Virus record (IMG/VR): IMGVR_UViG_3300042465_009257
Coordinates: 109,359 to 173,358 of that record
Source of the DNA: a virus
Length of the DNA stretch: 64,000 nucleotides
Direction: 5' to 3' (one strand)
The first letter of the stretch is position 1. Each line of letters starts with the position of its first letter. Made by a program: the position numbers and the translations under genes. Under the pieces are notes generated by a model. The model searched no databases. It was not told where the DNA came from and saw only the letters and a list, made by a program, of their open reading frames with translations. Below, one piece after another: positions 104 to 61,645 of this stretch.

Positions 104-130
104 TTACAATCGACTACTCCAAAATGGAAA
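104..130 (-). promoter_or_regulatory. Phage late promoter (TTTCC-N17-TGTAAT)
   Basis: On the minus strand the -35-like box AAATTTCC and the -10-like box TGTAAT are separated by exactly 17 bp. The site drives the putative tape measure gene starting at 83. It is one of a family of 14-15 such sites in the window. Confidence 0.75.
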
Positions 131-131
131 T

Positions 132-1004
132 TTAATTGCGTTTTTTCTTACTCTGCGCCAAATCAGCCTCAACCTCCGATCCCGACAATTCTTTTTCCTC
201 TGGCGGCGCGTTATTTTTAACGATAGCGTAGGTCTCCAGCATTTTCGGCTCTTTATAGAAATCCTCTGGCGCTTCCCAAGCAATTTTAATAACCTCATTA
301 TATCTCTTAGCCAAACGAAGCAAATTCATTTGATATACTGTCAATTCCGGCGCGGGTTTTTTAAAGAAATCTCCTGGATTTGAAACGTAATTATCAAAAA
401 CAGAATAGAAAAAAGAAGAAACAACAAGAAGTTCTAGGTATTCCTCATTGAATTTTAATACTTTATTAGAGTAATCATTGCGCAAAATGGTCAATTCAAC
501 TTCGCCCAATAGATTAAATTCTTCTTCTTCAAAGAACGGCGACCCATCAAGTTTGCGGCTGGCCAAGAAAATTTCAAAATCATACGAGCGACTATAGGCA
601 TAAGACTCGCAACAATCCTGGGTAGCAATATTCCGCTTCATAGCGTCAGAATCAATGTCGTCCTTCATCTCCCGCAAAGTCTCATGGAAGCTTCGAATAT
701 TCTGCACCATTCCCATTGCCGGAATTTTGGAACGCCGCGCCCAAATCATCTTATAATCATCTAATTTTCTTTTAAATGATTCTTCATTTTCTTGGCTCCA
801 AAAAGTCGGATCATTAAATTTATTTAATATAGTATCCCGCAACTCTACTCCGTGATCTTTGGCCCATTTTAGATGTTTCTCGCGGTCCTCATCTACTAAA
901 CACTGGTCAAAAATAGATTGATGAATATATACGATAGGCTGGCCCCTGAAAACAGAGGTAGTCTTACCTTCGCAAATCTCTTTATATCCGAAAACTTGGC
1001 TCAC
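132..1004 (-). CDS. Putative tail assembly chaperone (290 aa)
   Basis: I do not recognise a named domain. The protein is charged, rich in E/K/F/Y and largely predicted helical, and ends in an acidic then basic tail (SGSEVEADLAQSKKKRN). It overlaps the preceding gene by 4 nt (ATGA), which implies coupled translation, and lies directly before the tape measure. Two coupled genes between tail tube and tape measure are typically the tail assembly chaperones (lambda G/GT position). Here the second protein has its own start instead of an obvious -1 frameshift. The assignment is positional inference. Confidence 0.4.
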   Translation of the reverse strand: MSQVFGYKEICEGKTTSVFRGQPIVYIHQSIFDQCLVDEDREKHLKWAKDHGVELRDTILNKFNDPTFWSQENEESFKRKLDDYKMIWARRSKIPAMGMVQNIRSFHETLREMKDDIDSDAMKRNIATQDCCESYAYSRSYDFEIFLASRKLDGSPFFEEEEFNLLGEVELTILRNDYSNKVLKFNEEYLELLVVSSFFYSVFDNYVSNPGDFFKKPAPELTVYQMNLLRLAKRYNEVIKIAWEAPEDFYKEPKMLETYAIVKNNAPPEEKELSGSEVEADLAQSKKKRN

Positions 1005-1702
1005 TCGGTTCTAATGAGTTCGGCAAAATCTTCCATTTTATCTTCTGTAACCCCCTTGAAAAGGAAAGCGTCAAGAATTAGAAAGGCTCTTTCAAAGGCG
1101 GCAATTTCAGCACCGTGCGTTTCTACACCGTCGAAAGCCTCGTAGTAATGAGTGCGCCGCGTTTCGTCTGCATGGCCCGCAAAGACAGGTTGACCTGATT
1201 CCCAGTGAAGAAGATTCAAGACCGCCCAGAGGCACGTTTCGCGCTCAGAAATCGATTCTGCGGTATGTTCATAAACCTCCAAGAGTCGCGCTTCCATTTT
1301 CTGGACCTGTTCGTAAAGATCTTGGAATTCCAGTTCAACTTTAGAGGTATCGCCACCTTCAACCTTAATTTTCTGGTATTCGTTACGCTTAATATTCAAT
1401 TCCGGCAGGATAACATCAAGTTCTTCCAAATCAGCCTTGGCATAAGCAAAACCACCTTGATTTAGAATTGCAGTTCGCATTGATTCGCGGCTTTGAACAC
1501 CCATAGCGACAGCTTTGCCGAATTCGGCGGATTGAATTACCCGCATTTGCTCAATTTCGCGGCGACCTGGGAGTTTGACAAAACATCCAACATCCTCAAC
1601 TAATTTTACTTCTTTGGTAAGAATTCCATCTTCTGTTTTTTCTTCAACTTTTTTAGTAATCGTCTTCGGGACGGTAAACGTGTGTAATTTCTTAATAGTC
1701 AT
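1001..1702 (-). CDS. Putative tail assembly chaperone / tail protein (233 aa)
   Basis: I chose the ATG at 1702 (MTIKKLHTFTVPKTI); a longer reading to 1726 would need a TTG start. The N-terminal ~60 residues look like beta-strands (TFTVPKTITKKVEEKT), followed by a helical, acidic region with a possible coiled coil (FQDLYEQVQKMEARLLEVYE). The stop overlaps the start of the next gene (ATGA at 1001-1004). Position between tail tube and tape measure suggests a tail assembly chaperone; no motif proves it. Confidence 0.4.
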   Translation of the reverse strand: MTIKKLHTFTVPKTITKKVEEKTEDGILTKEVKLVEDVGCFVKLPGRREIEQMRVIQSAEFGKAVAMGVQSRESMRTAILNQGGFAYAKADLEELDVILPELNIKRNEYQKIKVEGGDTSKVELEFQDLYEQVQKMEARLLEVYEHTAESISERETCLWAVLNLLHWESGQPVFAGHADETRRTHYYEAFDGVETHGAEIAAFERAFLILDAFLFKGVTEDKMEDFAELIRTE

Positions 1703-1767
1703 ATGCTTTTTAGAAAAGTATGGCAAAATTTAATAGCCAAGCTTAGTTTTAATTTTTAATAAATAGT

Positions 1768-2058
1768 TTATAATCCTCTCCGTAATTCTCCACCGTAATC
1801 CAGCAATTTTTTCCTGTAGACTTGGTACTGAGCCTCACCTAAAGATTCTGCGTGTTTTGCCAAATGGGTCAATTCCACATCAATCCCTGATTTTTCGAAA
1901 ACAAATAATTCATATTCCGAAAGCGACTCTCCAAGCTTCTCTACTTGGGTTTCCTGCTGCACACGGGCATCCTCAAGAATTCCAAGACAGTATTTGACCA
2001 TCTCTGTGATTCTCCGCTCGGCACGAAACCGCAGAACTTCTTCTTTCACCTCATCCAT
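1768..2058 (-). CDS. Small helical protein of unknown function (96 aa)
   Basis: This is a short, charged, predicted all-helical protein (MDEVKEEVLRFRAERRITEM at the start). There is no signal peptide, membrane segment or recognisable domain. It lies inside the tail module between the tailspike gene and the putative assembly chaperones, so a tail assembly role is possible. A weaker late-promoter-like site (2074-2100) stands just upstream. The ATG is preceded by AAGGA, one of the few purine-rich stretches near a start in this region. Confidence 0.5.
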   Translation of the reverse strand: MDEVKEEVLRFRAERRITEMVKYCLGILEDARVQQETQVEKLGESLSEYELFVFEKSGIDVELTHLAKHAESLGEAQYQVYRKKLLDYGGELRRGL

Positions 2059-2073
2059 ATTCCTTAATCTATT

Positions 2074-2100
2074 TTACAAGAAAAAGGAAAAAAAGAGAAA
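2074..2100 (-). promoter_or_regulatory. Weaker late-promoter-like site (TTTCT-N17-TGTAAA)
   Basis: It has one mismatch in the upstream box (TTTCT for TTTCC), but the spacer to TGTAAA is again exactly 17 bp, and the gene start at 2058 is correctly placed. An overlapping TTTCC closer in (spacer 7) does not fit the family. Confidence 0.4.
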
Positions 2101-2116: not shown

Positions 2117-3910
2117 TTAAAAAACCGGACCTGTAAAGAACTGGCGTGAAGTATTTACTGGGTTTGACGGATTGACCGGATCATAAGCTCCTCCACTAGG
2201 CGATCCGGCTACTGGTGTATAAGGTAAAGTGGTCGTCCATGCGTAGGCATTCCCACGGCTGTAGTGGGCAATACCAGCTAGTCCCTGAATCGTTGGCGAC
2301 TGACCTTGACCAAATGCTCGGATATTTTTATTATACATTGCGTCACGAATCAGGAAAGTTACTCCACCGCTGCATTTCAGCCCGTTAATGTTTACGCGGT
2401 CTTTGACATTATACGGAACGGGATTAAGGGCAACTGTTGAGTACGCTCTGCTAATTAAAACGCCAGTTCCGTAGCCAAAGTAACGTGTAGAATCATTAGT
2501 TGCATTGTATGTAATTGCATTTACCGCCGTTACTTCTGATTCATTTGCAAAATCTACTCCAGAAAGTCCATCTTCATAATATAATGCGCCTCGTGCAGGG
2601 TCTTGCAGTTGCCAGATATTCAAACTCGTTAAACTAATATTATTTCCGCCTGTGCTATTTTCTTCAACATGGATACCAACGACCGGACCTTCAATGTGAA
2701 TATTTGAAACAGACATATTTCCTTGCGCCTTAATTCCGATCAGTGGATATGTAACAACCCATGCAGGTTCTGGGTCCGCAGGCGCAACATTCCAAGCTGA
2801 GCTGATTCTTTTTACCATGCTCATGTCGATTGTTCCAACATTGACACTCGCGTTATTGGTAGCATATGAAAAATAAATAGGTATCATATCACGAACAGTA
2901 CGCCCGGTAATCCAGAAATTTTTAATACTTAGACCGTTGACAACTGATGCTGGATAAGACCCTCCTGCGACCCTATGGGAGCAGAACCCAATTCCAAACC
3001 CAGTTGGATTTGAAATAACAACTTCATCAATAATTGAACATTCCTCGACATTTCCTTTAGAGGAAATCCCTGAGATTCGTTTATTAGTTAAACGGTAGGC
3101 AAACGAAGCGTAGTAACATTCAATTAAGACTCCCGTAACTTGATTGCGATAAGTCGCTCCACCTCCAGGTCCTCCAATCCAAATAACTGCTCCGTGATTT
3201 GGCACATCCAGTGAAGGGTTATCCCAGACATCCGACTGAAGCCAAGTGTCTGCCACCCATTCAGATGTGGCAGTGATAGAAGTTTGCGCTGAGCCTGATC
3301 CTTTGATGTGAATGTATCCGCCATGGCAGTCGATTGGTCTCGCAACGTAGTAGATGCGTGGGCCAAGGCTGACGGTAGTCCCATGCCAATCAGGATATGT
3401 TAAACCAACGGCTCCGGCGCGGGTAGATGACTGAATCGCGCAGTTGATGGCAATGTCGTGACGGTCAGTTTGCAAGCCCCACCACTCAGGGTAGACTTCT
3501 GTTCTGCCGAACATTCCGACGATATCTCCTGCATCAAATCCGCTAAAGATCTGACTTCTATCGGCCAAGCACTGGCCAAAGAATTTCAAGGTAGATCCAG
3601 AGCCTTTTATTAATTTAAAAGTATTAAAATCAATTGTTTTTTCTACTGGAATTACTGTAGATCCAGCAGGAAGAGTAATATTTGCCCCAAGTCTAAGAGT
3701 TAAAGTTCCAGCTTCCGCTAAAGCGCTTGTTAATTGAGCTTGAGTAGTAATAAATCTTAAAGAGGAATCGGAATTAGTCTGTAACCAATTTTGCATTGCC
3801 GCCCGATCAGCCTTTGAATCTCCACTACTATCAATAAGATAAGTAAAGGCCGCACTACTAGGAGCGGTAGCTAAAGGTAAATCGCGAATTCTGTCTCCTG
3901 CTGTTGCCAT
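2117..3910 (-). CDS. Tailspike with right-handed beta-helix (597 aa)
   Basis: After a short N-terminal region (to about residue 50), residues ~50-500 show the repeating short strands, glycines and asparagines of a parallel beta-helix, as in pectate-lyase-like tailspikes (for example GYIHIKGSGSAQTSI and MSVSNIHIEGPVVGIHVEEN). Such proteins bind and often cleave surface polysaccharides. No catalytic residues can be assigned with certainty. The gene follows the tail tube transcriptionally and has its own late promoter at 3919-3945, whose spacing predicts a nearly leaderless mRNA. Confidence 0.65.
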   Translation of the reverse strand: MATAGDRIRDLPLATAPSSAAFTYLIDSSGDSKADRAAMQNWLQTNSDSSLRFITTQAQLTSALAEAGTLTLRLGANITLPAGSTVIPVEKTIDFNTFKLIKGSGSTLKFFGQCLADRSQIFSGFDAGDIVGMFGRTEVYPEWWGLQTDRHDIAINCAIQSSTRAGAVGLTYPDWHGTTVSLGPRIYYVARPIDCHGGYIHIKGSGSAQTSITATSEWVADTWLQSDVWDNPSLDVPNHGAVIWIGGPGGGATYRNQVTGVLIECYYASFAYRLTNKRISGISSKGNVEECSIIDEVVISNPTGFGIGFCSHRVAGGSYPASVVNGLSIKNFWITGRTVRDMIPIYFSYATNNASVNVGTIDMSMVKRISSAWNVAPADPEPAWVVTYPLIGIKAQGNMSVSNIHIEGPVVGIHVEENSTGGNNISLTSLNIWQLQDPARGALYYEDGLSGVDFANESEVTAVNAITYNATNDSTRYFGYGTGVLISRAYSTVALNPVPYNVKDRVNINGLKCSGGVTFLIRDAMYNKNIRAFGQGQSPTIQGLAGIAHYSRGNAYAWTTTLPYTPVAGSPSGGAYDPVNPSNPVNTSRQFFTGPVF

Positions 3911-3918: not shown

Positions 3919-3945
3919 TTACAATTCTTTTTTAAAAAATGGAAA
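3919..3945 (-). promoter_or_regulatory. Phage late promoter fused to the tail-tube terminator
   Basis: The boxes are TTTCC and TGTAAT with a 17-bp spacer. The upstream TTTCC box is formed from the end of the T-tract of the terminator at 3942-3985, so termination and re-initiation are physically joined. The predicted start site lies about at the ATG of the tailspike gene. Confidence 0.75.
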
Positions 3946-3991: not shown

Positions 3992-4039
3992 CCTACTCAG
4001 AGAATTCCAAGGGGGTCCATAGGGAAATTTATCCCCTAT
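3992..4039 (-). other. Conserved 3' UTR module: post-stop hairpin and CCTATG...GAGTAGG block
   Basis: Directly after the tail tube stop (TAA, then an in-frame TAG) the mRNA can form a hairpin (arms ATAGGG/CCCTAT, 4019-4039). A block CCTATG...GAGTAGG (about 3992-4023) follows and is repeated with the same order behind the capsid gene (30809-30853). It may protect the mRNA 3' end or assist termination; this is inference. Confidence 0.5.
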
Positions 4040-5118
4040 TAAGTGTTTGCGATACCAGACATAAACAATCCATTCAGAGAATCATTACCGCCACCGACAG
4101 TTCCTTGGAAGTTCATTGTTACCGTGGAAGCGTCCCCACCGATAGAGAAATCATGAGCTTGGCTTTCGTAAGAGAGGTTTTTCAGGCGGAAAAGAGAGGC
4201 AACTGCGCCAGTTCCAGAACAGTTTGGACGACGGATGGTGACATCAACACTATAAGATCCGGTTTCACAAGCAAAAGTGGACAAACGCCCAGCCGTCATA
4301 TCTTTTGCAAGGAATTCAACCGCAAAAGTTACAGGGATAACATCAGCAATAATACTATCTTTACGATAGAAAGCGCCGAGACATTGCTGCTGCTGACGAC
4401 CGAACTCAACTCCAATATCTACACTTTGCACGCAGGCATTGGCTAAATCGTAGAAAACCCCAGACGCGCCGGAAAGGTTGACGCTGATATCGCGGGGACG
4501 GAGAATTGGGTCGCGACCACCGAAAGCATTTCCAGAAGCGGTCGGTAGAGTAAATGTACCAGTGGCAATCGCTCCAGTATTTACGTTAATAGCGGGCAAA
4601 CGCTCAGCACTAGAATCAACGTAGTATTCCGCGTCAACAGCCTCAAAAGACATGGAAACAGTAGGATAAGAGCCGACTGCCGCATTAAAATTATACGAAG
4701 AGATCGTAGCATTTCCGAAACCAATACAAGGAGTAGAGCCAGGAACTGCGCCGATAGCATCAATCCCATCCGAAGAAATCATCGCAAAAATGTTACGTTC
4801 ATCTTTCGTTCCGTCAAGAAGATTTGAAAAAGCGCCGCTGATAGTACTATCAGTGATAAATCCGAAGCTTTTCTCGTTATCGAAATTACTTAGGTAGTAA
4901 GATAGATCAAAAGTCACTACGGGAGCAGCAGGATCTTCGCGACGATCAGCGGCACGTTTACCGAAGACCAGGATATCTTCCTTAGAGGTTGCGAAATTGT
5001 AACCAAAACTCTGAGTTCCGTAGATCTCTTTAATATTGGCGGTAGTATGTGTTCCAGTCGCAGGAGATGGGCCTGCGTAAAGGACAACGTTGGAAGAGGC
5101 GATTTTTTTGCGTGGCAT
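4039..5118 (-). CDS. Major tail tube protein (359 aa)
   Basis: The protein is almost entirely beta-rich, with N/G/S/T-rich turns (IKEIYGTQSFGYNF, TVSMSFEAVDAEYYV). Its two halves look like two tube-type beta domains, as in siphovirus major tail proteins of T5-like length. It has its own late promoter (5142-5168), tandem stop codons (TAA TAG), a conserved 3' UTR block and a very strong terminator, as expected for a very abundant structural protein. The capsid gene has the same 3' arrangement. The start ATG is clear; no Shine-Dalgarno sequence precedes it. Confidence 0.65.
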   Translation of the reverse strand: MPRKKIASSNVVLYAGPSPATGTHTTANIKEIYGTQSFGYNFATSKEDILVFGKRAADRREDPAAPVVTFDLSYYLSNFDNEKSFGFITDSTISGAFSNLLDGTKDERNIFAMISSDGIDAIGAVPGSTPCIGFGNATISSYNFNAAVGSYPTVSMSFEAVDAEYYVDSSAERLPAINVNTGAIATGTFTLPTASGNAFGGRDPILRPRDISVNLSGASGVFYDLANACVQSVDIGVEFGRQQQQCLGAFYRKDSIIADVIPVTFAVEFLAKDMTAGRLSTFACETGSYSVDVTIRRPNCSGTGAVASLFRLKNLSYESQAHDFSIGGDASTVTMNFQGTVGGGNDSLNGLFMSGIANT

Positions 5119-5141: not shown

Positions 5142-5168
5142 TTACAATCAGTCGGTTTTAAATGGAAA
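5142..5168 (-). promoter_or_regulatory. Phage late promoter of the tail tube gene
   Basis: AAATTTCC and TGTAAA are separated by 17 bp. The predicted leader is about 16 nt. Confidence 0.75.
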
Positions 5169-5193: not shown

Positions 5194-6810
5194 TTAAGGG
5201 GCCACTATTGGAGGTGCAGTTACAATGACTAAACGAGGGCGAATAGAGGCAACAAGATTATTAGCTGAATTAAATTGTAATCCATCTCCACTACTTTCAT
5301 CAGGCCCTTGAAGTAGCCAACCATTATTAGAAGATGGAGTCGTAACCCAGCCTTGTACGGTAGCTACATTTAGATTTATTGTGCAAAATCCAGTATAATT
5401 ATCCAAGCCTTGCCCTACAGGAGTGGGACCATAAATTGTTTCAGGAGTACTTACAGCATCTACGTTATTAGCGCTGATTCCATTTACAAGGGTATCCCAA
5501 GTATCTGTAGCTACCCATGGAATTAAGATCTTATGCATTACGAAGCCAAGCCCTTCAGTTCCGATAAGTATTTCCAGATAAGCCTGGATTACTATTTGAT
5601 CTGTAGGTATAGATGATAAATCAAACTGAATAAATGCTTGTCTTGTTCTAGAGACAGTTGGATAAGCCGAATAATCCCAGTCAACCACCAAAGTTGTTGA
5701 TGTTCCATTCGCAGTAGTAGGAAGACTTGAATCTAAATACGTATCAACATTTCCCGTGTAAGATGATACCCCTTGTTGAAAACTATAAGTAGTAGGTGCT
5801 CCCAATGAACGATCAAAGCGAAAAAGTGGATAATTCGTACTAGTCCCGCCGTGTGTTGTAACGTATTCAGAACAGGTATAATAATATAAACCAGATGAGT
5901 CAAAGCAGATTGCTTCCCCCTGAGGTTCTGCGTTGGTTTGAACAGCTTTAAAACCACTTGCTTTTATTCCTGTCGCGCATGGCATTTGAGTTGGCGCAGT
6001 CGCCAAAGCATCATAAACGGTTTGAGTTGATGGATTGCGGGAAAAACGAGAGACTTTATCGTAAGAGCGAACTAGAATTTCGGTTCCATTTGGGGAAATA
6101 CAGCCCCCGGTCGCATACCCATCATTACCAGAAGGTGTGGTGGAAAGTGTATTAAAAGTAGCATCTGCCGAAAGTTCCCCCATGTAAGTCAGCGTTTGAG
6201 TTCCGGTGTAACTCGCGGCCCATGACAATTTATAACATAAAGTTGGTGTAATTCTCTTTGTAATAATAAAAAGATCTCCAGTAAGAGGGTCTATAATCGC
6301 CGCCTCAACATCTTTATGCGTAGGAATATTCCCTCCTGGAAAGGCACAGACGATTTCTTCCCAATCAGTTCCGCTGGCTAAAGTCCCATCACTTCCTGTG
6401 ACAACTGGCTCTTTTATCCGAAATACTTTAAATGTAGCCCTGGCATTGGCATTATCACCAGTATCCAGTAAATATACATAAGCGATGCCGCCGCGCCGAA
6501 CTGAGCCGCATTCTTCTACGTCAGAAACACTCGCTCCAGTAAGAACCCACTTTCCTGCATTGGCGGCAGTGGCGCGATTAATGGCGATAATATGAGGATT
6601 TGCGCCGTCCTCAATTGCCCAAATATAATTCTTATTTTCTTGACGTTGAGCAGTAGCTAATCCAGAAAGTTCAACATAAGCAATCGGTAAATTGCCAACC
6701 TTGACTGGGCCATAAAACCACCCTTTTTTACTCTGCTGTGAAGCAGCAGGATGCCCTGATAAGCTGACAACCGATAAGAGTAAAAAAATAATAAATAGAA
6801 TACGATTCAT
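5194..6810 (-). CDS. Secreted or virion-displayed beta-propeller/DNRLRE-like protein (538 aa)
   Basis: It begins with a clear Sec signal peptide (MNRILFIIFLLLSVVSLSG, then AASQQ), which is unusual for a tail protein. Residues ~30-330 have repeated strands and D/G turns consistent with a beta-propeller. Residues ~345-530 resemble the DNRLRE/collagen-binding-like beta-sandwich: a strand VDTYLDSS, then AFIQFDLSSIP, AYLEILI, and near the end RPRLVIV. It lies 1 nt from the next signal-peptide protein (6812-8551). The role may be adhesion or coating of the cell surface. Function is not proven. Confidence 0.5.
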   Translation of the reverse strand: MNRILFIIFLLLSVVSLSGHPAASQQSKKGWFYGPVKVGNLPIAYVELSGLATAQRQENKNYIWAIEDGANPHIIAINRATAANAGKWVLTGASVSDVEECGSVRRGGIAYVYLLDTGDNANARATFKVFRIKEPVVTGSDGTLASGTDWEEIVCAFPGGNIPTHKDVEAAIIDPLTGDLFIITKRITPTLCYKLSWAASYTGTQTLTYMGELSADATFNTLSTTPSGNDGYATGGCISPNGTEILVRSYDKVSRFSRNPSTQTVYDALATAPTQMPCATGIKASGFKAVQTNAEPQGEAICFDSSGLYYYTCSEYVTTHGGTSTNYPLFRFDRSLGAPTTYSFQQGVSSYTGNVDTYLDSSLPTTANGTSTTLVVDWDYSAYPTVSRTRQAFIQFDLSSIPTDQIVIQAYLEILIGTEGLGFVMHKILIPWVATDTWDTLVNGISANNVDAVSTPETIYGPTPVGQGLDNYTGFCTINLNVATVQGWVTTPSSNNGWLLQGPDESSGDGLQFNSANNLVASIRPRLVIVTAPPIVAP

Positions 6811-6811
6811 A

Positions 6812-8551
6812 TTATTGCAGATTTCCAGAGATTACAACGGCATTGGTGGCGTAGCTCATTATATCTACGACAGCGAATTGACCTTGGGTGGAGAGAAGAG
6901 TTCCGAAACTATTAATGGTCGCCGAAGCTCCTGGCGCGAGAGTAACAACGCCCGCTCCCCCTTGAACGATTTTGCAGGTAAAGTTCGCGGCGAGACCACT
7001 TGGAACAGTAAGAGTAATAGCTGAAGCATTTGTAAGAGTCACAACCTTATCTTTATCAGAAGCTTGAAGAGTATAAGTAGTTCCTGTTTGGGCATTAATA
7101 CCCCCAAGTGTAGCCCATTGTGGAGCAGTTGCCCCAGCATTAACTTGCAAAACTTGTCCAGCTGTTCCAATTGCAAGCCGAGTCGCTGTGTCGGAACCAG
7201 TCCCATAGGCAAGATCTCCAGCTACATTCCATAATACATCAGTAGCCATATTCCCGCCTGAGGAAGGAGTCTGCCATGTTGCAGTTGTCCCACTTGTTGC
7301 CATTAGAACTTGACCATTAGTTGGAGCGGTTGCGGCTGATACGCTTACAGTGGTGGTCGCAGATCTTAAAGCATTAGAAGTTCCAGCTGTAAATCCATTA
7401 GCAGTTCCGCTAATATTCGTTCCAACCAAAGTAGAAGGAGTTCCTAAATTAGGATTTATTAGGGTTGGCGAATCATTCATGACAACGAATCCCGTTCCTG
7501 TTTCATTAGAAATTACTCCTGCAAATTGGGCCGAGGTTGTGGCGGCAAATTGACTAAGGGGATTAGTAGTTAAAGCGTTTCCTGATGTAGCAGGATTTTG
7601 CCAACTTGCGACGCTTGAACTTGTGGCCGTTAAAATTTGACCAGCACTAGGAGCAGCAGAGGCCGATACACTGACAGTCGTAGTAGCAGACTTTAATGCA
7701 TTGGAAACGCCAGAAGTAAGATTAGCAGCAGTTCCACTAATGTTTGTTCCGACTAAAGTGGAAGGAGTTCCTAAATTTGGAGCAATCAGAGTAGGATTAT
7801 TGTTCATAACAACAAAACCAATTCCCGTTTCATCTGAAATCGCATTGGCAAAATTTCCACTGCTAGGAGTTCCCAAAAAGGTGGCAACTGCTGGCCCTAA
7901 ACCGCTTACACCAGTACTGATTGGCAAGCCCGTCGCATTCGTTAAAGTCACGCTGGTCGGAGTTCCTAAAATTGGAGTTACTAAAGTTGGGGAGGTATTA
8001 TAAACTAAAAGATTAGTTCCTGTTTCATTTGACATAACTCCGGCGAGTTGGGCGGAAGTCGTTGCCGCAAACTGGCTGAGAGGATTTTCCGTTAAAGCAT
8101 TCCCTGATCCAACCGAAACAGTTGCCCCGTTAATTCTAGCTTTTAAAGCATTTGCGGTAGAATCATACCATAAATCACCGTTGACAAGAGTTGATGGATC
8201 AGAGGCTACCGCGCCGACATTAATGCCCGCCACTGTAGCACCAGGATTAAAACTAATGCGGACATTATCAAGCCAAGTCGCCGCGCCATTGACGGTCAAA
8301 GACGCGAAAGTCCCCGCGCCTGGAGTCACTGCCCCGATTGCGCCGGGTGCCCCCATCATTGTAGAAAGCAACGTACTATAATAGAGATTTTGGGTGGCAT
8401 TGGTTCCAGAGTCCCAAAATAGAAAGGCATCCCCGGCGGCGGGGGTAGAATTAGTTGGGTAATCAGTTCCAGACCCTTGTTTCTTCCACGCGCCAAAAGA
8501 GGAGGTCGTAAGAGCCAGGACTAAAATCAGAGAGAGATAGATTTTATTCAT
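6812..8551 (-). CDS. Tail-fibre-like protein with signal peptide and repeats (579 aa)
   Basis: An N-terminal signal peptide (MNKIYLSLILVLALTTSSFG) precedes a fibre of G/T/N/S-rich repeats. A module carrying NLGTPSTLVGTNISGTA and TTSAQFAGVISNETG is repeated two to three times (about residues 150-420), typical of phage fibre shafts. The C-terminal part (~490-579) is a compact beta-region (ITLTVPSGLAANFTCKIVQ) seen at the end of other phage fibres. The combination of export signal and fibre shaft is odd: either the fibre is exported by the infected cell or the signal acts as a membrane anchor. Confidence 0.55.
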   Translation of the reverse strand: MNKIYLSLILVLALTTSSFGAWKKQGSGTDYPTNSTPAAGDAFLFWDSGTNATQNLYYSTLLSTMMGAPGAIGAVTPGAGTFASLTVNGAATWLDNVRISFNPGATVAGINVGAVASDPSTLVNGDLWYDSTANALKARINGATVSVGSGNALTENPLSQFAATTSAQLAGVMSNETGTNLLVYNTSPTLVTPILGTPTSVTLTNATGLPISTGVSGLGPAVATFLGTPSSGNFANAISDETGIGFVVMNNNPTLIAPNLGTPSTLVGTNISGTAANLTSGVSNALKSATTTVSVSASAAPSAGQILTATSSSVASWQNPATSGNALTTNPLSQFAATTSAQFAGVISNETGTGFVVMNDSPTLINPNLGTPSTLVGTNISGTANGFTAGTSNALRSATTTVSVSAATAPTNGQVLMATSGTTATWQTPSSGGNMATDVLWNVAGDLAYGTGSDTATRLAIGTAGQVLQVNAGATAPQWATLGGINAQTGTTYTLQASDKDKVVTLTNASAITLTVPSGLAANFTCKIVQGGAGVVTLAPGASATINSFGTLLSTQGQFAVVDIMSYATNAVVISGNLQ

Positions 8552-8572
8552 TTTTAAATTATTTAAATAATA

Positions 8573-10075
8573 TTATGCTAGAGTGAGGGAGACGGATCTG
8601 ACTACGCCATCAGAGCCTTTCAGTCTGAGAGTTAATGAGGTATTACTAGTTGCCTCGACAACAAGGTCACCGTTGCTAGCTGGAATTACAGATGCCAAGG
8701 GCTGCTGTACGAAAGTTCCATTATTTGTAATTTTAACCGTTTTACCATTTGCGTTCGCTTCAAGTAAATTATCGCATGTAACACTAGTTGAATTAAGAAC
8801 AATTCCTTTATGACCATTTGGAACTGAAACCCCCACCTCAGTAGAGCCAAGGGCGGCTCCAGCAACCATTATTTTAGCTACAGAAAATGTACATACACTT
8901 GATATATTATTAGAATCTAACATTCTTAAAACAGTAGTGCCGCCTAATATAAAATCAATCCCACGATTATCAGCGTAAGATCCGCCTTTCTCCGTCCCAA
9001 TCCTTAGAATATTACTTGTCCAGCCAAATGTCGCCCGGTCAAAATTGGTGGCTGGGGTGGCGTCAGTAGAATTATAAACGCGGAATGTTTGAGCGTTACC
9101 AATATTACGCTGGGCTAGAGTTCCGGTTGCATCTCGAAATAAAAATAAATCGTTGCCGCCGTTGTAATTATTATTTACGTTATTCCACCCAATACGAGCG
9201 GTACTAATTAAGCTAATACCGTTATAGTTCCCAGTTGGATGGTAAATATTATTTCCAATTAATGCCCCATCTGCCCCAGCGATATAAACATTACCGCCTC
9301 CATGGGCAGAAATTCCCGCCCCTCCACCGCAATAGATTAATCCTGATTTATTTACAGTAAACTTACTTATCCCACCAACTTGCAAATCTATCAAATTTGA
9401 TGAAATATTCGACGCCGTATCAGTCACATTCAACTTCACACTTGTAAACAACTGCTGAATCGTCCCCCCGGAAACCCAGGTAGCCGTAGTAGCATTTGCA
9501 TAAGAAACTGAAGTCGTAGTAGAAGCAGTCACCACAAAAGTCCCGTTATATCCAGCTGGATTGATACTCGCGACGACAATAGTAGATCCAACCACTATCG
9601 CGGCACTTTGCGCGGCAAAAGTAATAGTCGCAATCGAACCCGTGCCGCTTGCGCCCGTGACGGTGATATTACTATTCCAAGTTTCGGCGATGTCGAGTTT
9701 GGCCGTTGGCGCGGGATTACCGATACCAATTTTATTATCATTAACAACCAAAGCATTACTTCCGTAAGTCCCCATTGTAATTTTGTCCGTAAAATTAGAT
9801 TCAACTTCAACAATAGGCAGGCCCGCCGCGTCATTGACGGAAAATACAACCCCAGTCACACTATCGGACACGCCGAATAATCTGCCGTAAGAGCCGTCAA
9901 CAGTAAATCTATCCAAGAAGCTTTCCCCGGTAGTGTAGCTGCTTATATTCAAGCCGCCAGCATTATCGTAAGACAATCGCGGCGCGGCGGAAAGGGGGGA
10001 AATTCCGCTGAAATTCGGCGATTGTGAATCGAAAATAATAGCGCCTGAAGCGGGAATCATTAATATATTTGCCAT
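8573..10075 (-). CDS. Tail fibre protein (500 aa)
   Basis: This is a beta-structured fibre with modules shared by the other fibre genes here. The segment around residues 130-250 (AETWNSNITVTGASGTG, GYNGTFVVTAS, SVKLNVTDTASN) recurs in the 12206-15970 gene, and GWTSNILRIGTEKG recurs in 22018-23250. The C-terminus is a short strand-rich knob (NTSLTLRLKGSDGVVRSVSLTLA). It was probably built by exchange of domains between paralogous fibres. No enzymatic motif is seen. Confidence 0.6.
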   Translation of the reverse strand: MANILMIPASGAIIFDSQSPNFSGISPLSAAPRLSYDNAGGLNISSYTTGESFLDRFTVDGSYGRLFGVSDSVTGVVFSVNDAAGLPIVEVESNFTDKITMGTYGSNALVVNDNKIGIGNPAPTAKLDIAETWNSNITVTGASGTGSIATITFAAQSAAIVVGSTIVVASINPAGYNGTFVVTASTTTSVSYANATTATWVSGGTIQQLFTSVKLNVTDTASNISSNLIDLQVGGISKFTVNKSGLIYCGGGAGISAHGGGNVYIAGADGALIGNNIYHPTGNYNGISLISTARIGWNNVNNNYNGGNDLFLFRDATGTLAQRNIGNAQTFRVYNSTDATPATNFDRATFGWTSNILRIGTEKGGSYADNRGIDFILGGTTVLRMLDSNNISSVCTFSVAKIMVAGAALGSTEVGVSVPNGHKGIVLNSTSVTCDNLLEANANGKTVKITNNGTFVQQPLASVIPASNGDLVVEATSNTSLTLRLKGSDGVVRSVSLTLA

Positions 10076-10093
10076 TTTAATTATTTATTAGTT

Positions 10094-10780
10094 TTAGAGT
10101 AATCCAAATCTGGATTTAGTCGCGTTAAAATTTTGTTTGATTTCTTGAGGAGATAAGGCTCTGTTGTAAATAGATGTTTGAGCAATATTACCTTTCCAAA
10201 AACTATTGCCAGCAACACTTCCATTTCCAATCCATGGACCATCAGGAAATCCCGCAGATGATCCAGCAGATGATTGAGATAATAATACTGAATTTACATA
10301 TATTTTAGCGGCTCCATCATAAACTGCGACTGCATTATACCAAGTATTGATTAAAGGCGCATTATTATTATTATTTGTTTGTATAGCTGGACCTAAATAT
10401 AAATTAAATCCATTTGCGCCATTATTTCCGACATTAATTCCAAAAAAAGAACCAATGCCACCTCCAACGTAAACCTTAGGACATGCTATCATTGGAAAAT
10501 TTCCAGCGCCAGAAATAAGATAGACCCAAGAAGATATAGTAAAAAAACTATTAGATGTGATAATAGATGACGTATCTACATAATCATTTGTCCCATCAAA
10601 AACTATATTTCCACCATTAGCGCCACTAAATGTGGAACCATTAATTAATGTCCCATTATTCCCATTCCCGCTCCGATCAAACCAAGTCGCGCCGCTGCCA
10701 GGATAACTTTTCTTATCCGCCGCGTCTAAACATAATACCAAACCATTTGTCACAATATCAGGACTGGCGCTAGAACTCAT
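10094..10780 (-). CDS. LamG-like (concanavalin A-type) adhesin, paralogue 3 of 3 (228 aa)
   Basis: It opens with TNGLVLCLDAADKKSYPGSG and RSGNGNNGTL, then VFDGTNDYVDT, the usual start of LamG/concanavalin A-like lectin domains of the laminin G3 type. YNRALSPQEIKQNFNATK closes the fold. The domain binds carbohydrates or proteins at surfaces. This is the last of three tandem paralogues joined by 4-nt ATGA overlaps, so all three should be made from one mRNA by coupled translation. Confidence 0.75.
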   Translation of the reverse strand: MSSSASPDIVTNGLVLCLDAADKKSYPGSGATWFDRSGNGNNGTLINGSTFSGANGGNIVFDGTNDYVDTSSIITSNSFFTISSWVYLISGAGNFPMIACPKVYVGGGIGSFFGINVGNNGANGFNLYLGPAIQTNNNNNAPLINTWYNAVAVYDGAAKIYVNSVLLSQSSAGSSAGFPDGPWIGNGSVAGNSFWKGNIAQTSIYNRALSPQEIKQNFNATKSRFGLL

Positions 10781-12203: not shown

Positions 12204-12205
12204 AT

Positions 12206-17074: not shown

Positions 17075-17101
17075 TTACAAATATTGAAGGGAAAATGGAA
17101 A
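17075..17101 (-). promoter_or_regulatory. Phage late promoter of the split fibre gene
   Basis: AAATTTCC and TGTAAT are separated by 17 bp. The predicted leader is about 9 nt. Confidence 0.75.
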
Positions 17102-48458: not shown

Positions 48459-48513
48459 GATATACTACTTAAATTAAATGAACTTTTTCAAAAAAAGTCA
48501 ACTAAAAATAAAT

Positions 48514-50991: not shown

Positions 50992-51018
50992 TTACAGACG
51001 AAATTATATTTTACGAAA
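50992..51018 (-). promoter_or_regulatory. Phage late promoter (TTTCG variant)
   Basis: AATTTCG and TGTAAA are separated by 17 bp; one mismatch in the upstream box. It precedes the GIY-YIG gene and the fibre gene at 48514-50160. Confidence 0.6.
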
Positions 51019-51027: not shown

Positions 51028-51765
51028 TTATTTCAGCGTATCTAATTTATCGCAAATAAACTTAAGAATTTCGGCCCTCATTATGTCCTCCTTTTGAAAC
51101 TCAAAGGTGTGAATGCCCTTAGCGCGGGAATCTTCTCCTGAAAACAGATGAAAGAATTCCATGAAACCTGACCGTTTTTGATCAATTTGCTTAGGATCGC
51201 CGACAAAGATGAATTTTCCTCCGTTGGCGTATCGGGTAAGGATAGTCTGTAGTTCGAATCTTTCAAATCCTTGAGCTTCATCAATAATCACATAGGATCG
51301 AAACTGCACTCCACGTAAAAAGTTGTTAGAAATTGCTTTAACAACTCCATTCTCCGCTAAAGAATTAACTTGTTTAAAAGGAAGAAGTTCGTCTAGTTTT
51401 TCTTGTAATGGAGCGAAAAAAGGACCGACCTTACTTTCAATATCCCCTGGCAAAAATCCGAGTGAACGAGCGGCAGATTCAACCACGCTACGAATATAAA
51501 CCATATTATCGTATCTCTTTTCCTTAATTAGTTGCAGTGCGCAATATACAGCAACGAGCGTTTTGGAACTTCCAGCAGGACCACTAACAAAAATAGCCTT
51601 AGTCTTCTTATCCAAGATCAACTCAATCAATTGTTTTTGCTTTGGAGTCCATTTAAACTCTCTGATTAGCAACTCGTCGGTATTTAGTTCGACAAACTCG
51701 TTGGTGATGTCTTTCTCGATCCGTTTCTTTTTCGCCGTCGCCTTTACAGGGGGTTTTTTGCTCAT
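51028..51765 (-). CDS. phoH: PhoH-like ATPase (245 aa)
   Basis: Walker A is IFVSGPAGSSKTLVAVYCAL (residues ~58-75) and Walker B YVIIDEAQGFE (~160-170), with FVGDPKQIDQKRSGF, the PhoH-family sensor block, further on. An N-terminal basic tail (KKPPVKATAKKKRIEKDI) precedes the ATPase. PhoH-like proteins are frequent in phages; their exact role (RNA or nucleic-acid remodelling) is not settled. It is the first late gene next to the divergent early promoter region. Confidence 0.85.
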   Translation of the reverse strand: MSKKPPVKATAKKKRIEKDITNEFVELNTDELLIREFKWTPKQKQLIELILDKKTKAIFVSGPAGSSKTLVAVYCALQLIKEKRYDNMVYIRSVVESAARSLGFLPGDIESKVGPFFAPLQEKLDELLPFKQVNSLAENGVVKAISNNFLRGVQFRSYVIIDEAQGFERFELQTILTRYANGGKFIFVGDPKQIDQKRSGFMEFFHLFSGEDSRAKGIHTFEFQKEDIMRAEILKFICDKLDTLK

Positions 51766-51793
51766 ATAGGAAAGTTATTGTCCTCATTAAATA

Positions 51794-51820
51794 TTACAAT
51801 CATATTATATTATAAGGAAA
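51794..51820 (-). promoter_or_regulatory. Phage late promoter of phoH
   Basis: AAATTTCC and TGTAAT are separated by 17 bp. It is divergent from the early promoter at 51842-51870, with about 20 bp between the two upstream boxes. Confidence 0.75.
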
Positions 51821-51841
51821 TTTTAAAAACTTTTTCTTACA

Positions 51842-51870
51842 TTGACTTTTCTCTTTAAAATCCCTCTAAT
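51842..51870 (+). promoter_or_regulatory. Host-type sigma-70 promoter for early genes
   Basis: TTGACT, 17 bp, TCTAAT. The -10 box ends 6 nt before the ATG at 51877, so the expected start site is at the start codon (leaderless mRNA). Confidence 0.7.
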
Positions 51871-51876
51871 GTATAG

Positions 51877-52593
51877 ATGCAAATTCAGACTCATACCGAA
51901 ATTGGACGGCGCGATGAAAACCAAGACCGGATTTATACTTCGCAGAAAGATCACGGATTCTTATTAGCCGTCGCCGATGGACACGGAAAGCATGGGACAA
52001 TGGTCGCAGAACGGGCAATTCGAGCCGTTAAGGCAGGCGGCGCACCTAAGCTAGTCGGCAAATTTGAAACTTGGGTCGCACGGCTTCACCGCAAAGTTGT
52101 CATGCAAACCCGCGCTTTCACCCAAGGAGGATCAACTCTTTCTATTTTTTACCACCTTGACGGCGAATCTCACATTTATCAAGTAGGGGATTCCCCTATC
52201 TTTGTGAAAACAGGCAACACAATTCAGCAATTTCGCGGTCACGGAGTTGATTTTCAAGAAAATGATGAGGATTTATTGCGGGCCGTTGCGGCGGGAGGAC
52301 AAATGAAGATGATTAATGAATCTTTATACTTGACAAGCGGCAAAAGTGCCTTAAGATTGACTCGCGCCTTAGGTAATTCTGGATTTGGGGATGCACTAAG
52401 CTCTGATCCACTGATTAAAAAAATTGAAGGTATCGTAGATTCTGTCTTAGTTGCCAGTGATGGTTTTAATGGAGAAAAAGAAGAAGTATTTAATTTGATG
52501 AAGCGTCAGGAAGACATTTCAAGATTCGTGGAATTACAGAAGAAGCGCGGGATTGGGGATAATATGTCAATTAGTTTAAAATATTTGTTTTAA
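51877..52593 (+). CDS. PP2C-family protein phosphatase (238 aa)
   Basis: It has the metal-binding and structural motifs of PPM/PP2C enzymes in order: GRRDENQDR (residues ~10-18), LAVADGHGKHG (~31-41, two metal-binding Asp/Gly), GGSTLSIFY (~84-92), IYQVGDSPIF (~100-109), LRLTRALGN (~158-166), VLVASDGF (~186-193, metal Asp) and IGDNMSISL (~227-235, metal Asp). It would remove phosphate from Ser/Thr residues of host or phage proteins. It is the first early gene under a sigma-70 promoter, so it acts early in infection. Small for the family but complete. Confidence 0.85.
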   Translation: MQIQTHTEIGRRDENQDRIYTSQKDHGFLLAVADGHGKHGTMVAERAIRAVKAGGAPKLVGKFETWVARLHRKVVMQTRAFTQGGSTLSIFYHLDGESHIYQVGDSPIFVKTGNTIQQFRGHGVDFQENDEDLLRAVAAGGQMKMINESLYLTSGKSALRLTRALGNSGFGDALSSDPLIKKIEGIVDSVLVASDGFNGEKEEVFNLMKRQEDISRFVELQKKRGIGDNMSISLKYLF

Positions 52594-54664: not shown

Positions 54665-55099
54665 ATGGAGATTAAGGAAAAATTAAAATCATTTTTTAAA
54701 AAAATTTTCCACATTCCGCAAAATATGGAAGAGAGTAAAGGGAGAGATGAATCTATTATTTTTGAGAATATCCGGCGACTTCGGCAATATGGCCATACAC
54801 CCGCCCCATTTCTAATTAATAATGAATTAGATTTTTTTACCGAGTTTGAATATGAATCGGAGAGTCTTCGCGGAAATCAAATCAGATATATTAAAGAAAA
54901 AATAGAAATTTTAGCCCCGACGCAAGCTTTACAATCATTTATGGCATTTGGGATAGTAACCAACGCGGAAAAGCTTGAGGAATTAGTTGAGGGATTGATT
55001 TCTCTCAATGATATGGCGTGGAAGAAGGTCGATTGGCGGGAATTAATGCGGGCCGTGGGGCGAATTGAAATTTACCCAAATACTGTTTTTGTAGATTAA
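54665..55099 (+). CDS. Early protein of unknown function (144 aa)
   Basis: A basic amphipathic N-terminal helix (EIKEKLKSFFKKIFHIPQNM) is followed by an acidic alpha-rich remainder (FTEFEYESESLRGNQIRYIK; NAEKLEELVEGLISLNDMAW). No family recognised. It stands 4 nt after the previous stop in the same row. Confidence 0.55.
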   Translation: MEIKEKLKSFFKKIFHIPQNMEESKGRDESIIFENIRRLRQYGHTPAPFLINNELDFFTEFEYESESLRGNQIRYIKEKIEILAPTQALQSFMAFGIVTNAEKLEELVEGLISLNDMAWKKVDWRELMRAVGRIEIYPNTVFVD

Positions 55100-55102
55100 A
55101 AA

Positions 55103-55735
55103 ATGAGAAATGTAAACTGCCCTAAAACAAGAATCTTCGTGCGCTGCGATACGTTCGGCGGTTCCATTAATGAATATGAACCCGCTTGGCTTGTCTCTGC
55201 GCGGGCAATGCGCAACCGCCCCCTAATCTTTCAGGTTTGGGTGGAGAAATATGCCGCATGTTTTGATAAAGTGCCGCCGCATTGTTTGTTTTGGCGTATG
55301 CCTAGCAGACAAGAACAGGCGCTACCGTTGCATAAAATCCAGATGTGGGAATGCTTATCAGGATCAATTGAGGTTTGGCGCAAAGATCAACTTACTGATG
55401 TGCCGGTGCTAGTTAATCTTGGAAAAGAAATGCCGCCGATTAAGGGCCACTATTGGTTTACAATTGATTTTATGCCGGAGGGGCAAGGCGGCGGATTACT
55501 TGATATTGGCGATGTAGAACTTCTCGAAGAGCATAAAGAAGGAAATATTATTAAACTCGAAAACGGGCAAATCGCAATTTATCCAAATAATAGAATTAAG
55601 TGGCTTCCAGTTTCGCTTACTGGCAAAGCTGCGGCGGCGGCAATTCCAGATTGGGATGTCGCGACGAATGCAAAATGGGATGAGTGGTGGTCATATTCAG
55701 ATGAAGTTCTTGGAGATGAGAAATGGGCTTATTAA
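55103..55735 (+). CDS. Early protein of unknown function (210 aa)
   Basis: The product has many aromatic and proline residues (EPAWLVSARAMRNRPLIFQV; HCLFWRMPSRQEQALPLHKI) and ends WWSYSDEVLGDEKWAY. The centre is strand-rich. I do not recognise a family. It is the last gene before the second early promoter (55772-55800). Confidence 0.55.
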   Translation: MRNVNCPKTRIFVRCDTFGGSINEYEPAWLVSARAMRNRPLIFQVWVEKYAACFDKVPPHCLFWRMPSRQEQALPLHKIQMWECLSGSIEVWRKDQLTDVPVLVNLGKEMPPIKGHYWFTIDFMPEGQGGGLLDIGDVELLEEHKEGNIIKLENGQIAIYPNNRIKWLPVSLTGKAAAAAIPDWDVATNAKWDEWWSYSDEVLGDEKWAY

Positions 55736-59562: not shown

Positions 59563-59739
59563 ATGAATCCCGAAATTAAAGAGAAATTTCCCGAGTGGGC
59601 CGCGAGATATGAAGAAATGCAGGATCTACTTTTTGGCCTATATTACGCCCGAAACTTTCAAATGGATCATAATGCCGTGGTGGATGGTCTAAATGAGGTT
59701 GATTATTTCCTTCGGCGGGAGGAAAAGAATTACAATTAA
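59563..59739 (+). CDS. Small helical protein (58 aa)
   Basis: It starts MNPEIKEKFPEWAARYEEMQ, then helical DLLFGLYYARNFQMDHNAVV and the end FLRREEKNYN. It is in the compact early row, with 22 nt upstream and 24 nt downstream to neighbouring starts. Function unknown. Confidence 0.5.
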   Translation: MNPEIKEKFPEWAARYEEMQDLLFGLYYARNFQMDHNAVVDGLNEVDYFLRREEKNYN

Positions 59740-59763
59740 TTATGAATAAAAATAAAACAAAAC

Positions 59764-59974
59764 ATGAAAAACAATACATCACAAACTAATGCTATTTTGG
59801 AGTACCTTTCCAAAGGAAAAACTTTAACACCATTGGAAGCTTTAAATAAATTTTGGCTGTTTCCGTCTCGGCGCTCGGATTTATGACCTGAAAAAGCAGG
59901 GTTACGAGTTTAATACGGTTATGGTTAAAATTCCCTCTGGCGCGAGTGTGGCGCAGTATAGCTTAGACAACTAA
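59764..59974 (+). pseudogene. HTH_39-type helix-turn-helix protein, broken by a one-base insertion
   Basis: Frame 1 reads MKNNTSQTNAILEYLSKGKT, LTPLEALNKF and then stops at 59884-59886. Dropping one T in the TTTT at about 59850 gives FGCFRLGARIYDLKKQGYEF and NTVMVKIPSGASVAQYSLDN, a perfect continuation of the helix-turn-helix family found in many phages (PF14090-like). The uninterrupted product would be 69 aa. Either the gene is broken, or the extra base is a sequencing error or a +1 frameshift site. Confidence 0.75.
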
Positions 59975-60020
59975 TTTTCCGCCCCGAATCGAATTAATTC
60001 TCTGAAAAGCAAATTTCCCC

Positions 60021-60049
60021 TTGACAGCCCCACTTTCGTGTGGTAGATT
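60021..60049 (+). promoter_or_regulatory. Host-type extended -10 sigma-70 promoter
   Basis: TTGACA, 17 bp ending CTTTCGTGTGG, TAGATT, with TGn before the -10 box. The -10 box ends 7 nt before the ATG at 60057 (leaderless). Confidence 0.8.
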
Positions 60050-60056
60050 AAATCCT

Positions 60057-60257
60057 ATGGATAAACACAACCCAATCACGCCTGTTCAGCAGGCATACCT
60101 AAACGCTAGCTTCCAAAACAAGTTGGAGCGATTGATTAATGAATTCCACCTAGAGGCAGACTCTGATACTCCAGACTATGTTTTGGCGAATTACATGATT
60201 CAATGTCTCATGGCGTTCAATACGGCGACTCAAGCGAAAATGAGAACTTCAGATTAA
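60057..60257 (+). CDS. Early protein of unknown function (66 aa)
   Basis: The start is the ATG at 60057 (MDKHNPITPVQQAYLNASFQ); a TTG reading from 60021 would start in the -35 box. Helical, with EFHLEADSDTPDYVLANYMI. It is the last early gene before the convergent HNH gene. The 55 nt behind it contain no obvious terminator. Confidence 0.55.
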   Translation: MDKHNPITPVQQAYLNASFQNKLERLINEFHLEADSDTPDYVLANYMIQCLMAFNTATQAKMRTSD

Positions 60258-60312
60258 AGTCCCCCGCGCCGTCACCGAAGGAGAAAACCGAAGATCCGAT
60301 TTTGGGGAAGGA

Positions 60313-61458
60313 TTAAGCATCATAGTGGTCAAGGTTGTCGCGCTTGACAAAACAGTTTTCTCTTGCACATAGCGGGGAGAAATTGCTAAAATGGTTCAAA
60401 AGTTCTATCTCCCACTCGTTTTCTGCAATTGATGTGGGGATAATATGATCTAAATGCCAAGTTAAATTAAATTCTTCGGGAACTCTGTAGCCTATATTCC
60501 CATAATTATCCCAATTCATCCACGGCTCGAACCTAGATTCAATATAAGATCTGAAATCTTCGAACGATAAACCAAGTATTTCTTCCGTTTTCTTGTTCTT
60601 GGTTTTACCCAGTTTTCTGAACCTATTTGCAATAGCTGATCTAATCCTCCCGACAAAAACTGAAAGGCGTCTTTTTTCTTTTCGTTGCTCTTCGGTAAAT
60701 TTGAGTTTATACTTTTCTTCGTATCTTTTTTGAACGAGTCTCGTAACCCACTTTTCTCCAGCGTGGCAAGACTTGCTGTATTCTCGAAAAACATAATCTG
60801 GCCGCTGGGGATGTTCTTGGTCAAACTTCCAAGCTAAGTTTGGATTATCTTTAATCCATTGCTGTAAAAATTCCCATTCGTCTTCGTTCAGCAATCGCTT
60901 CACTGGGAAAAGGGTATATTGTCCGAATTCACTTTTTTCGCTAGGGAAAACTGGATCAAATTTTAAGTTATAAAGGTTATTTGCCGATCTTTGCTTTAAA
61001 CCTTTCGGAGTATAGGCTTTTTCTTGTAATTTTTGAAATTTTTCTTCTGTGGTCCACCATTCCCCGTTCGTAGAGCCTCGATTGTAACCAGCAAAAATAT
61101 AACCATCGGAACTCCTTCTATCACCACTCCTCCACTTCTGCGAGCTATTCACTTTAGTCCAATTTTTCAATTCGGCATATTCAGTATTGGTGAGTTGTCG
61201 GTTGACACAAAAAGGTGAAAATCCTTGGCTATTATCTCTTATTCGGGGCTTCGAAAAACCTGGGTGATAGACCCACCTTTCACCATTAATAAAAGAACGC
61301 CCATATTCGAGAAAATACATATTAGGATAATCTGGGGATTCATCATAAGCCCAAAGTCTTAAATCTGCATTTTTTGGATCATTTTTCCATTTTTGAAGAT
61401 CAATGTATTCTGATTTGGTCGGCATACGGTTAATATTTAAATAGCTCTTCTTTTCCAT
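60313..61458 (-). CDS. HNH homing endonuclease with three N-terminal repeats (381 aa)
   Basis: The C-terminus (residues ~330-375) carries an HNH nuclease: FNLTWHLDHIIPTSIAENEW, then LNHFSNFSPLCARENCFVKR (His-Asn-His/Asn elements). Three ~80-residue repeats fill the N-terminal two thirds: (T/N)xxEYxxLxxWxK, then a W near the middle, P-D-Y-x-F-x-E-Y, and GExWV, at about residues 12-65, 87-140 and 193-245. They are probably DNA-binding units. It lies alone on the minus strand with a ribbon-helix-helix gene directly before it. Confidence 0.75.
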   Translation of the reverse strand: MEKKSYLNINRMPTKSEYIDLQKWKNDPKNADLRLWAYDESPDYPNMYFLEYGRSFINGERWVYHPGFSKPRIRDNSQGFSPFCVNRQLTNTEYAELKNWTKVNSSQKWRSGDRRSSDGYIFAGYNRGSTNGEWWTTEEKFQKLQEKAYTPKGLKQRSANNLYNLKFDPVFPSEKSEFGQYTLFPVKRLLNEDEWEFLQQWIKDNPNLAWKFDQEHPQRPDYVFREYSKSCHAGEKWVTRLVQKRYEEKYKLKFTEEQRKEKRRLSVFVGRIRSAIANRFRKLGKTKNKKTEEILGLSFEDFRSYIESRFEPWMNWDNYGNIGYRVPEEFNLTWHLDHIIPTSIAENEWEIELLNHFSNFSPLCARENCFVKRDNLDHYDA

Positions 61459-61459
61459 T

Positions 61460-61600
61460 TTATTTTTCGAAATACGAATCTAAGGCCCTCTTAATAATTT
61501 CAGACATCGTTGAGCCTGTTTCTTCCGCCCGACCCTTTAACTTTGCTTTAATAGCGTCAGTGAGAAAAACTTCGACCTTTTGCTTGTTTTTTAGTTTCAT
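61460..61600 (-). CDS. Ribbon-helix-helix DNA-binding protein (46 aa)
   Basis: The short protein MKLKNKQKVEVFLTDAIKAK, LKGRAEETGSTMSEIIKRAL, DSYFEK has one N-terminal strand (KVEVFL) followed by two helices (TDAIKAKLKGRAEETG, TMSEIIKRALDSYF), the CopG/Arc fold. Such proteins are repressors or antitoxin-like regulators. It ends 1 nt before the HNH nuclease gene, so the two form an operon; the HNH gene could be under its control. The gene starts 19 nt downstream of the late promoter at 61619-61645. Confidence 0.75.
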   Translation of the reverse strand: MKLKNKQKVEVFLTDAIKAKLKGRAEETGSTMSEIIKRALDSYFEK

Positions 61601-61618
61601 AAATAATTATAATATGTA

Positions 61619-61645
61619 TTACATGTAATTTTCCTGAAATTGAAA
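61619..61645 (-). promoter_or_regulatory. Phage late promoter (TTTCA variant) of the RHH-HNH operon
   Basis: AATTTCA and TGTAAT are separated by 17 bp; one mismatch in the upstream box. It is the only copy outside the main late block. Confidence 0.6.

Follow-up and report, generated by a model that had tools for sequence, protein, structure and literature searches.

Late promoters read by a phage sigma factor have been described in phage 7-11, where they have the form GTAAtg-(16)-aCTA and are served by SaPh711_gp47, and in phiEco32, where the gp36 promoters have the form tAATGTAtA (PMC8948821). Two further arrangements are known from better-studied viruses: the UL26 protease gene of herpes simplex virus contains the promoter of the UL26.5 scaffold (PMC2949831), and homing endonucleases of phage T4 have late promoters of their own or carry along the promoters of neighbouring genes (PMC2988022). 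Here, we analyzed a stretch of 64,000 nucleotides (the window) that covers positions 109359-173358 of an uncultured virus record 173,358 bp in length (IMGVR_UViG_3300042465_009257; linear, perhaps incomplete), in which a two-box element, TTTCC-N17-TGTAA, recurs upstream of genes. With a probability of about 0.78, we consider that this element is the late promoter of a whole phage family and that it is read by a phage-encoded sigma factor, the product of gene 47402-48115, on the host core polymerase.

A two-box element with a fixed spacing

A preliminary description of the window had listed 15 copies of the element, 14 main ones and a weaker one, as a private late promoter lying just upstream of gene starts. 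When checked against the sequence, the coordinates, the minus strand and the exact 17-bp spacer were right for all 15 stretches, and the 14 main sites were indeed found 9-44 nucleotides upstream of the next start. The upstream box is exactly TTTCC in 11 of these 14 sites, and an additional exact minus-strand copy, at 33239-33265, had been overlooked. The putative late promoters of the window are listed below with the genes that they would serve (window coordinates, as everywhere unless the record is named; the gene calls come from a simple script).

104-130, minus strand: before a gene of more than 1000 codons that runs beyond the left edge of the window and may, by its length, be tape-measure-like
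2074-2100, minus strand: weaker site (TTTCT) before 1768-2058
3919-3945, minus strand: before 2117-3910; the predicted +1 coincides with the A of the ATG (leaderless)
5142-5168, minus strand: before 4039-5118
17075-17101, minus strand: before 16261-17058
21280-21306, minus strand: TTTCA, before 20273-21262
23713-23739, minus strand: before 23425-23700
28746-28772, minus strand: before 27883-28731
30710-30736, minus strand: before 30345-30698
33239-33265, minus strand: internal site, within 32643-34964
34974-35000, minus strand: before the putative protease-scaffold gene 32643-34964
39135-39161, minus strand: before a small membrane-like gene (open reading frame start 39126)
42444-42470, minus strand: before the putative portal gene 40490-42400
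50992-51018, minus strand: TTTCG, before the homing-endonuclease-like gene 50164-50979 (NUMOD1)
51794-51820, minus strand: before phoH, 51028-51765
61619-61645, minus strand: TTTCA, before a cassette made of a ribbon-helix-helix gene (61460-61600) and an endonuclease-VII-like gene (60313-61458)

The genes served within the window thus comprise structural genes, the putative portal gene, phoH and two homing-endonuclease-like genes. Comparison with dinucleotide-shuffled controls, which had been proposed as a check of the spaced pair, showed a strong enrichment: the window has 13 exact copies of TTTCC-N17-TGTAA, 12 on the minus strand and one on the plus strand, where 0.29 would be expected, and none of 100 shuffles reached 13. 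In the whole record, there are 22 exact copies, compared with 1.0 expected. The looser pattern TTTC-N18-TGTAA gave 33 matches over the record against 3.6 expected, and, when spacings of 10-26 were scanned, these 33 matches at the motif's own spacing compared with at most nine at every other. The remaining 109 kb of the record contain about a dozen copies on the plus strand, which the preliminary description had also missed. The single exact plus-strand copy of the window, at 24065, is located within a tail-gene repeat, with no plus-strand start nearby, and probably arose by chance.

A matrix was built from 27 sites of this phage picked as TTTC-N18-TGTAA, so that those letters are fixed by choice. 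It brought out two further parts that had previously gone unnoticed: an A-rich block directly upstream of TTTCC and, at a constant 7-8 nucleotides past TGTAAT, a T (24/27) followed by an A (22/27). This TA is start-site-like and marks where transcription would begin. Its A is the A of the ATG at several sites (3919, 39135); since the ATG lies further downstream at 104 and 5142, the TA does not simply reflect start codons. When the record was scanned again with the matrix, the selected sites scored at least 17, apart from most others, and variants were added at record positions 219, 89530 and 90732. The statement that the element resembles neither T4 late nor Bacteroidota promoters was borne out on the record, where neither the T4 late motif TATAAATA (12 matches against 17.4 expected) nor TTTG-N19-TAnnTTTG (6 against 10.2) was enriched. 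Judged from its sequence, this recurrent two-box element with a fixed spacing before structural genes is very probably a promoter.

Conservation in distant relatives and inside a putative protease-scaffold gene

A first exact-pattern scan of viral contigs with the strict motif was swamped by chance matches, and a second one returned 29 matches, about the chance number. Single-protein searches with the DNA polymerase and the portal found no relatives, and the terminase had only distant matches among isolate phages. Re-scoring the set from the first scan with the matrix revealed one true distant relative (L122), recognized by its promoter scores and gene order, with a terminase that is 36% identical. 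An alignment of the two terminases led to at least 575 viral stretches with relatives, from which 80 loci were kept; these contigs are fragments, and the 80 loci were not dereplicated and include near-identical ones. The features used in this section are:

42473-44332, minus strand: terminase large subunit, used for finding the family
32643-34964, minus strand: putative prohead protease-scaffold gene, identified from models of homologs with weak matches to herpesvirus proteases
32643-33221, minus strand: predicted nested in-frame frame of 192 amino acids, scaffold-like, starting 17 nucleotides past the internal promoter

Scanning of related phages had been suggested as a test, and the matrix derived from this phage alone detected 40 same-strand sites in the 80 loci against 0.7 expected. 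The family form is AAAADTTCNC-N16-TGTAA, with a box-to-box distance equal to that of this phage (62 matches at that spacing and at most 20 at others). Strikingly, 105 of 110 family sites are found at only four places, at each of which this phage also has a site: inside the homolog of 32643-34964 (48 loci; site 33239 here), before that gene (23 loci; site 34974), before the homolog of 4039-5118 (17 loci; site 5142) and before the portal homolog (17 loci; site 42444). Where the 4039-5118 homolog is encoded on the opposite strand, a motif site is present there too. Contrary to the preliminary claim, the element is therefore not private: a slightly changed version recurs at orthologous gene positions across a large group of distantly related phages. 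As a putative late-gene signal, it can be read in over 500 uncultured phage contigs without a close isolate in the collection searched, and structural genes and their timing would thus become predictable from sequence in these contigs.

The internal site was analyzed in 36 non-redundant homologs chosen by protein similarity. TTC.C-N16-TGTA was found at one alignment column in 36/36 of them, and third codon positions within the boxes are invariant (GTA 36/36, CAA 32/32, ATT 24/24, AAA 27/27); conserved columns outside the boxes display mixed codons, with a mean top-codon share of about 0.6. In addition, the base preceding GTA is always T, despite a varying amino acid. According to this codon analysis, coding constraint does not account for the conservation of the internal site. 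In all 36 measurable genes, this phage included, an in-frame ATG lies 14-32 nucleotides past TGTAA, and one of the 36 has an earlier out-of-frame ATG. The C-terminal frame opened by the internal ATG spans 223-249 amino acids, and 192 in this phage. In a structure model of a homolog (predicted template modelling score 0.41), residues 51-231 form a beta-rich domain and residues 244-286 a disordered linker, and long helices are also present. The best structural matches of the model are consistently herpesvirus capsid proteases, if weakly so (E 0.01 and above). The linker region of this putative protease-scaffold protein is where the internal promoter is located.

A divergent sigma factor upstream of the terminase gene

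The preliminary description had suspected that the protein encoded at 47402-48115 acts on the element, and profile matches identify it as a divergent sigma factor.

47402-48115, minus strand: divergent sigma factor of 237 amino acids, extracytoplasmic function (ECF)-like, with a Zn-ribbon-like insert; probable promoter reader
48096-48458, minus strand: Zn-ribbon-like protein of 120 amino acids (zr120), whose gene opens the sigma operon and which is conserved across the family
48473-48501, minus strand: host-type promoter TTGACT-N17-TTTAAT, 14 nucleotides before the sigma operon

The protein matches TIGR02937 with an E-value of 3.5e-6 and 26.8 bits and is only ECF-like rather than an ECF member, because this score is under the curated cut-off of 42.9. 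Sigma70_r2 (PF04542) is matched by 26/26 members of its family (best 4e-7; the window member weakly), the region 4 profile PF08281 by 3/26, and the PHROG 'RNA polymerase sigma factor' by 17/26. A C-terminal helix-turn-helix is seen in the model, and a Cys-rich, Zn-ribbon-like insert separates the domains. Its best solved-structure profile matches are ECF sigmas (E 0.22-1.7). Like ECF sigma factors, it is small and would have regions 2 and 4 only; unlike them, it falls below curated cut-offs and carries the Cys-rich insert. No credible sequence match was found among isolate phage records.

In 51 loci, this phage counted, the sigma gene directly precedes p383-ERCC4-terL, and among contigs retrieved by the sigma alone, three of four contain the motif. 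No motif was found in stretches of two phages that have a distant terL and lack such a sigma, and none was found before the sigma operon in any of the 36 family members examined. Genes for a multisubunit polymerase (Rpb1-type subunit) were not found in the phage. We also observed that a 383-amino-acid protein (46254-47405) and an ERCC4-type nuclease (45331-46251) are conserved between sigma and terL throughout the family. Moreover, four contigs of metagenome-assembled genomes in GTDB (L266-L269), assigned to Flavobacteriaceae, Halobacteriovorax, Flavobacteriales and one bin without a name, carry members of the sigma family; these are possibly host hints or mis-binned phage.

The phage also has promoters of the host type. 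TTGACW-N16-19-TATAAT or a close variant precedes about a dozen genes, chiefly in the left arm and mostly 5-10 nucleotides before the ATG, and a scan found such promoters at 15 genes, compared with 1-5 when the controls were shifted. Shine-Dalgarno sequences are not enriched in the phage (10/159 genes; background 17). A protein phosphatase 2C-like gene (51877-52593) heads a plus-strand cluster of small genes and has a host-type promoter in front.

These observations are consistent with a model in which the host polymerase with the host primary sigma would read the TTGACA-N17-TATAAT promoters that precede early genes and the zr120-sigma operon, after which the phage sigma would bring the host core polymerase to the structural genes. 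Its target would be laid out as an A-rich block, TTTCC, N17, TGTAAT and a +1 A seven bases on; region 2 of the sigma would read TGTAAT and its C-terminal helix-turn-helix the TTTCC box. Late transcripts would then be leaderless or nearly so, the internal copy would yield a separate scaffold protein out of the protease-scaffold gene, and homing-endonuclease cassettes that carry copies would be expressed alongside late genes. That the served genes are late is suggested by their content. If so, a divergent sigma family is paired with its probable DNA target, a pair that can be tested in a tube without the host.

Several observations weigh against this model: the relatives themselves were used to refine the family matrix, some relatives (e.g. 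G003) are poor in the motif, the best fold matches of the sigma model, although sigma subunits, are weak, and a second sigma-like protein of 166 amino acids (record 54694-55194) was found, in this phage only. This second protein, if made early like T4 gp55, might read the late promoters alone or with 47402-48115; its gene lies in the early arm, and of the two proteins it matches Sigma70_r2 more strongly (E 6e-14). We nevertheless find this unlikely: the loci of relatives contain no homolog of it, the terL-adjacent sigma is the sole sigma found in 12 relative contigs (though these are fragments), and no region 4 match is seen in the 166-amino-acid protein, whereas a -35 box is conserved in the promoter.

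It is even harder to believe that the host polymerase and a host sigma are guided by a phage activator bound to TTTCC, as with MotA at T4 middle promoters. TGTAAT is only one base off TATAAT, 17 bp is the spacing of sigma-70 promoters and the phage does possess host-type early promoters, but TGTAA is invariant in the 27 selected sites and nearly so in the family, with a G at the second position of the -10 box, where sigma-70 needs an A, and the conserved gene block includes the sigma gene. Finally, the AT-rich flanks of the motif could hint at an effect of chance or composition, or at a binding site that is not a promoter but an operator or a signal for packaging or recombination, a reading that hardly survives the shuffles, the spacing scan, the strand bias, the 9-44 nucleotides to starts, the fixed TA initiator and the synonymous-site constraint.

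Homing-endonuclease cassettes and comparison with known systems

Outside the window, plus-strand copies of the element mostly precede isolated plus-strand islands amid minus-strand early genes. Most of these islands hold a GIY-YIG or LAGLIDADG homing endonuclease, often after a tiny protein of the ribbon-helix-helix type. Pfam matches support this type for two of the tiny proteins (RHH_1, E 1.4e-5, window 61460-61600; RHH_3, E 3e-4, record 89571-89729), and the remaining ones are called so by resemblance only. The preliminary claim that the element marks the late regulon is incomplete, in that about eleven copies serve homing-endonuclease genes, mostly inserted among early genes. The recurrent mobile cassette consists of a late promoter, a tiny gene (46-57 amino acids, mostly ribbon-helix-helix-type) and a homing endonuclease, on the strand opposite to the left-arm early genes:

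5720-14811, record (C1): cassette
39675-40844, record: cassette
51393-52553, record: cassette
59631-60917, record: cassette
71426-72620, record: cassette
89530-90523, record: cassette
60313-61645, window: cassette
7345-8526, strain contig L016: cassette

The tiny cassette protein may repress its own promoter. Near-identical strains differ in the presence of cassettes and promoters (window 44363-45331 and 39331-40461; L016 7345-7605 and 12422-12582). In L016 (17.6 kb), a promoter and a tiny gene precede the terL-adjacent endonuclease, and this phage lacks them there; conversely, L016 lacks the endonuclease 39331-40461 yet retains a diverged copy of the downstream promoter, TTTCT-N17-TGTAA (compare the 39135 site). 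Such differences between strains offer a natural comparison with and without endonuclease cassettes.

At the end of the record (window 63818-64000), the 14-bp unit CCCCCACGCGCCTG is repeated perfectly 13 times. It is GC-rich, unlike the AT-rich phage as a whole, and may mark a point where the assembly broke.

The element most likely belongs to a known kind, the phage-sigma late promoter, to which its family-wide distribution, its use inside a scaffold gene and its use by endonuclease cassettes are added here. As with T4 late promoters (gp55, TATAAATA), late genes would be transcribed under a phage sigma on the host core polymerase; T4 late promoters differ in having no -35 box. As is proposed here, phage 7-11 has a two-box late promoter read by a phage sigma on the host core polymerase, with early genes read by host sigma-70, but its boxes differ and 47402-48115 matches no isolate phage record in sequence. 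The element resembles phiEco32 promoters in its TGTA core at the -10 position, a start predicted 6-8 bp downstream and a probable phage sigma, whereas phiEco32 has a single element and a sigma without region 4, in contrast to the conserved -35 box and C-terminal helix-turn-helix seen here. Like T4 endonuclease genes, the cassettes are mobile and tied to late promoters, and the promoter of the next gene is kept at insertion (PMC2988022); unlike in T4, a tiny ribbon-helix-helix-type gene often lies between promoter and endonuclease.

The closest counterpart of the internal site is UL26/UL26.5 (PMC2949831), with which it shares, in sequence layout alone, a promoter within a protease-scaffold frame and an in-frame, 3'-coterminal scaffold frame; here, the promoter is bacterial-type and the nested product is predicted. 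We think it likely that this uncultured lineage has its own late promoter class, a sigma with a Zn-ribbon-like insert and an invariant nested copy that would let scaffold protein be made in excess from a near-leaderless message of its own, as a counterpart of UL26.5. If true, a herpesvirus-type capsid-assembly arrangement becomes testable in bacteria.

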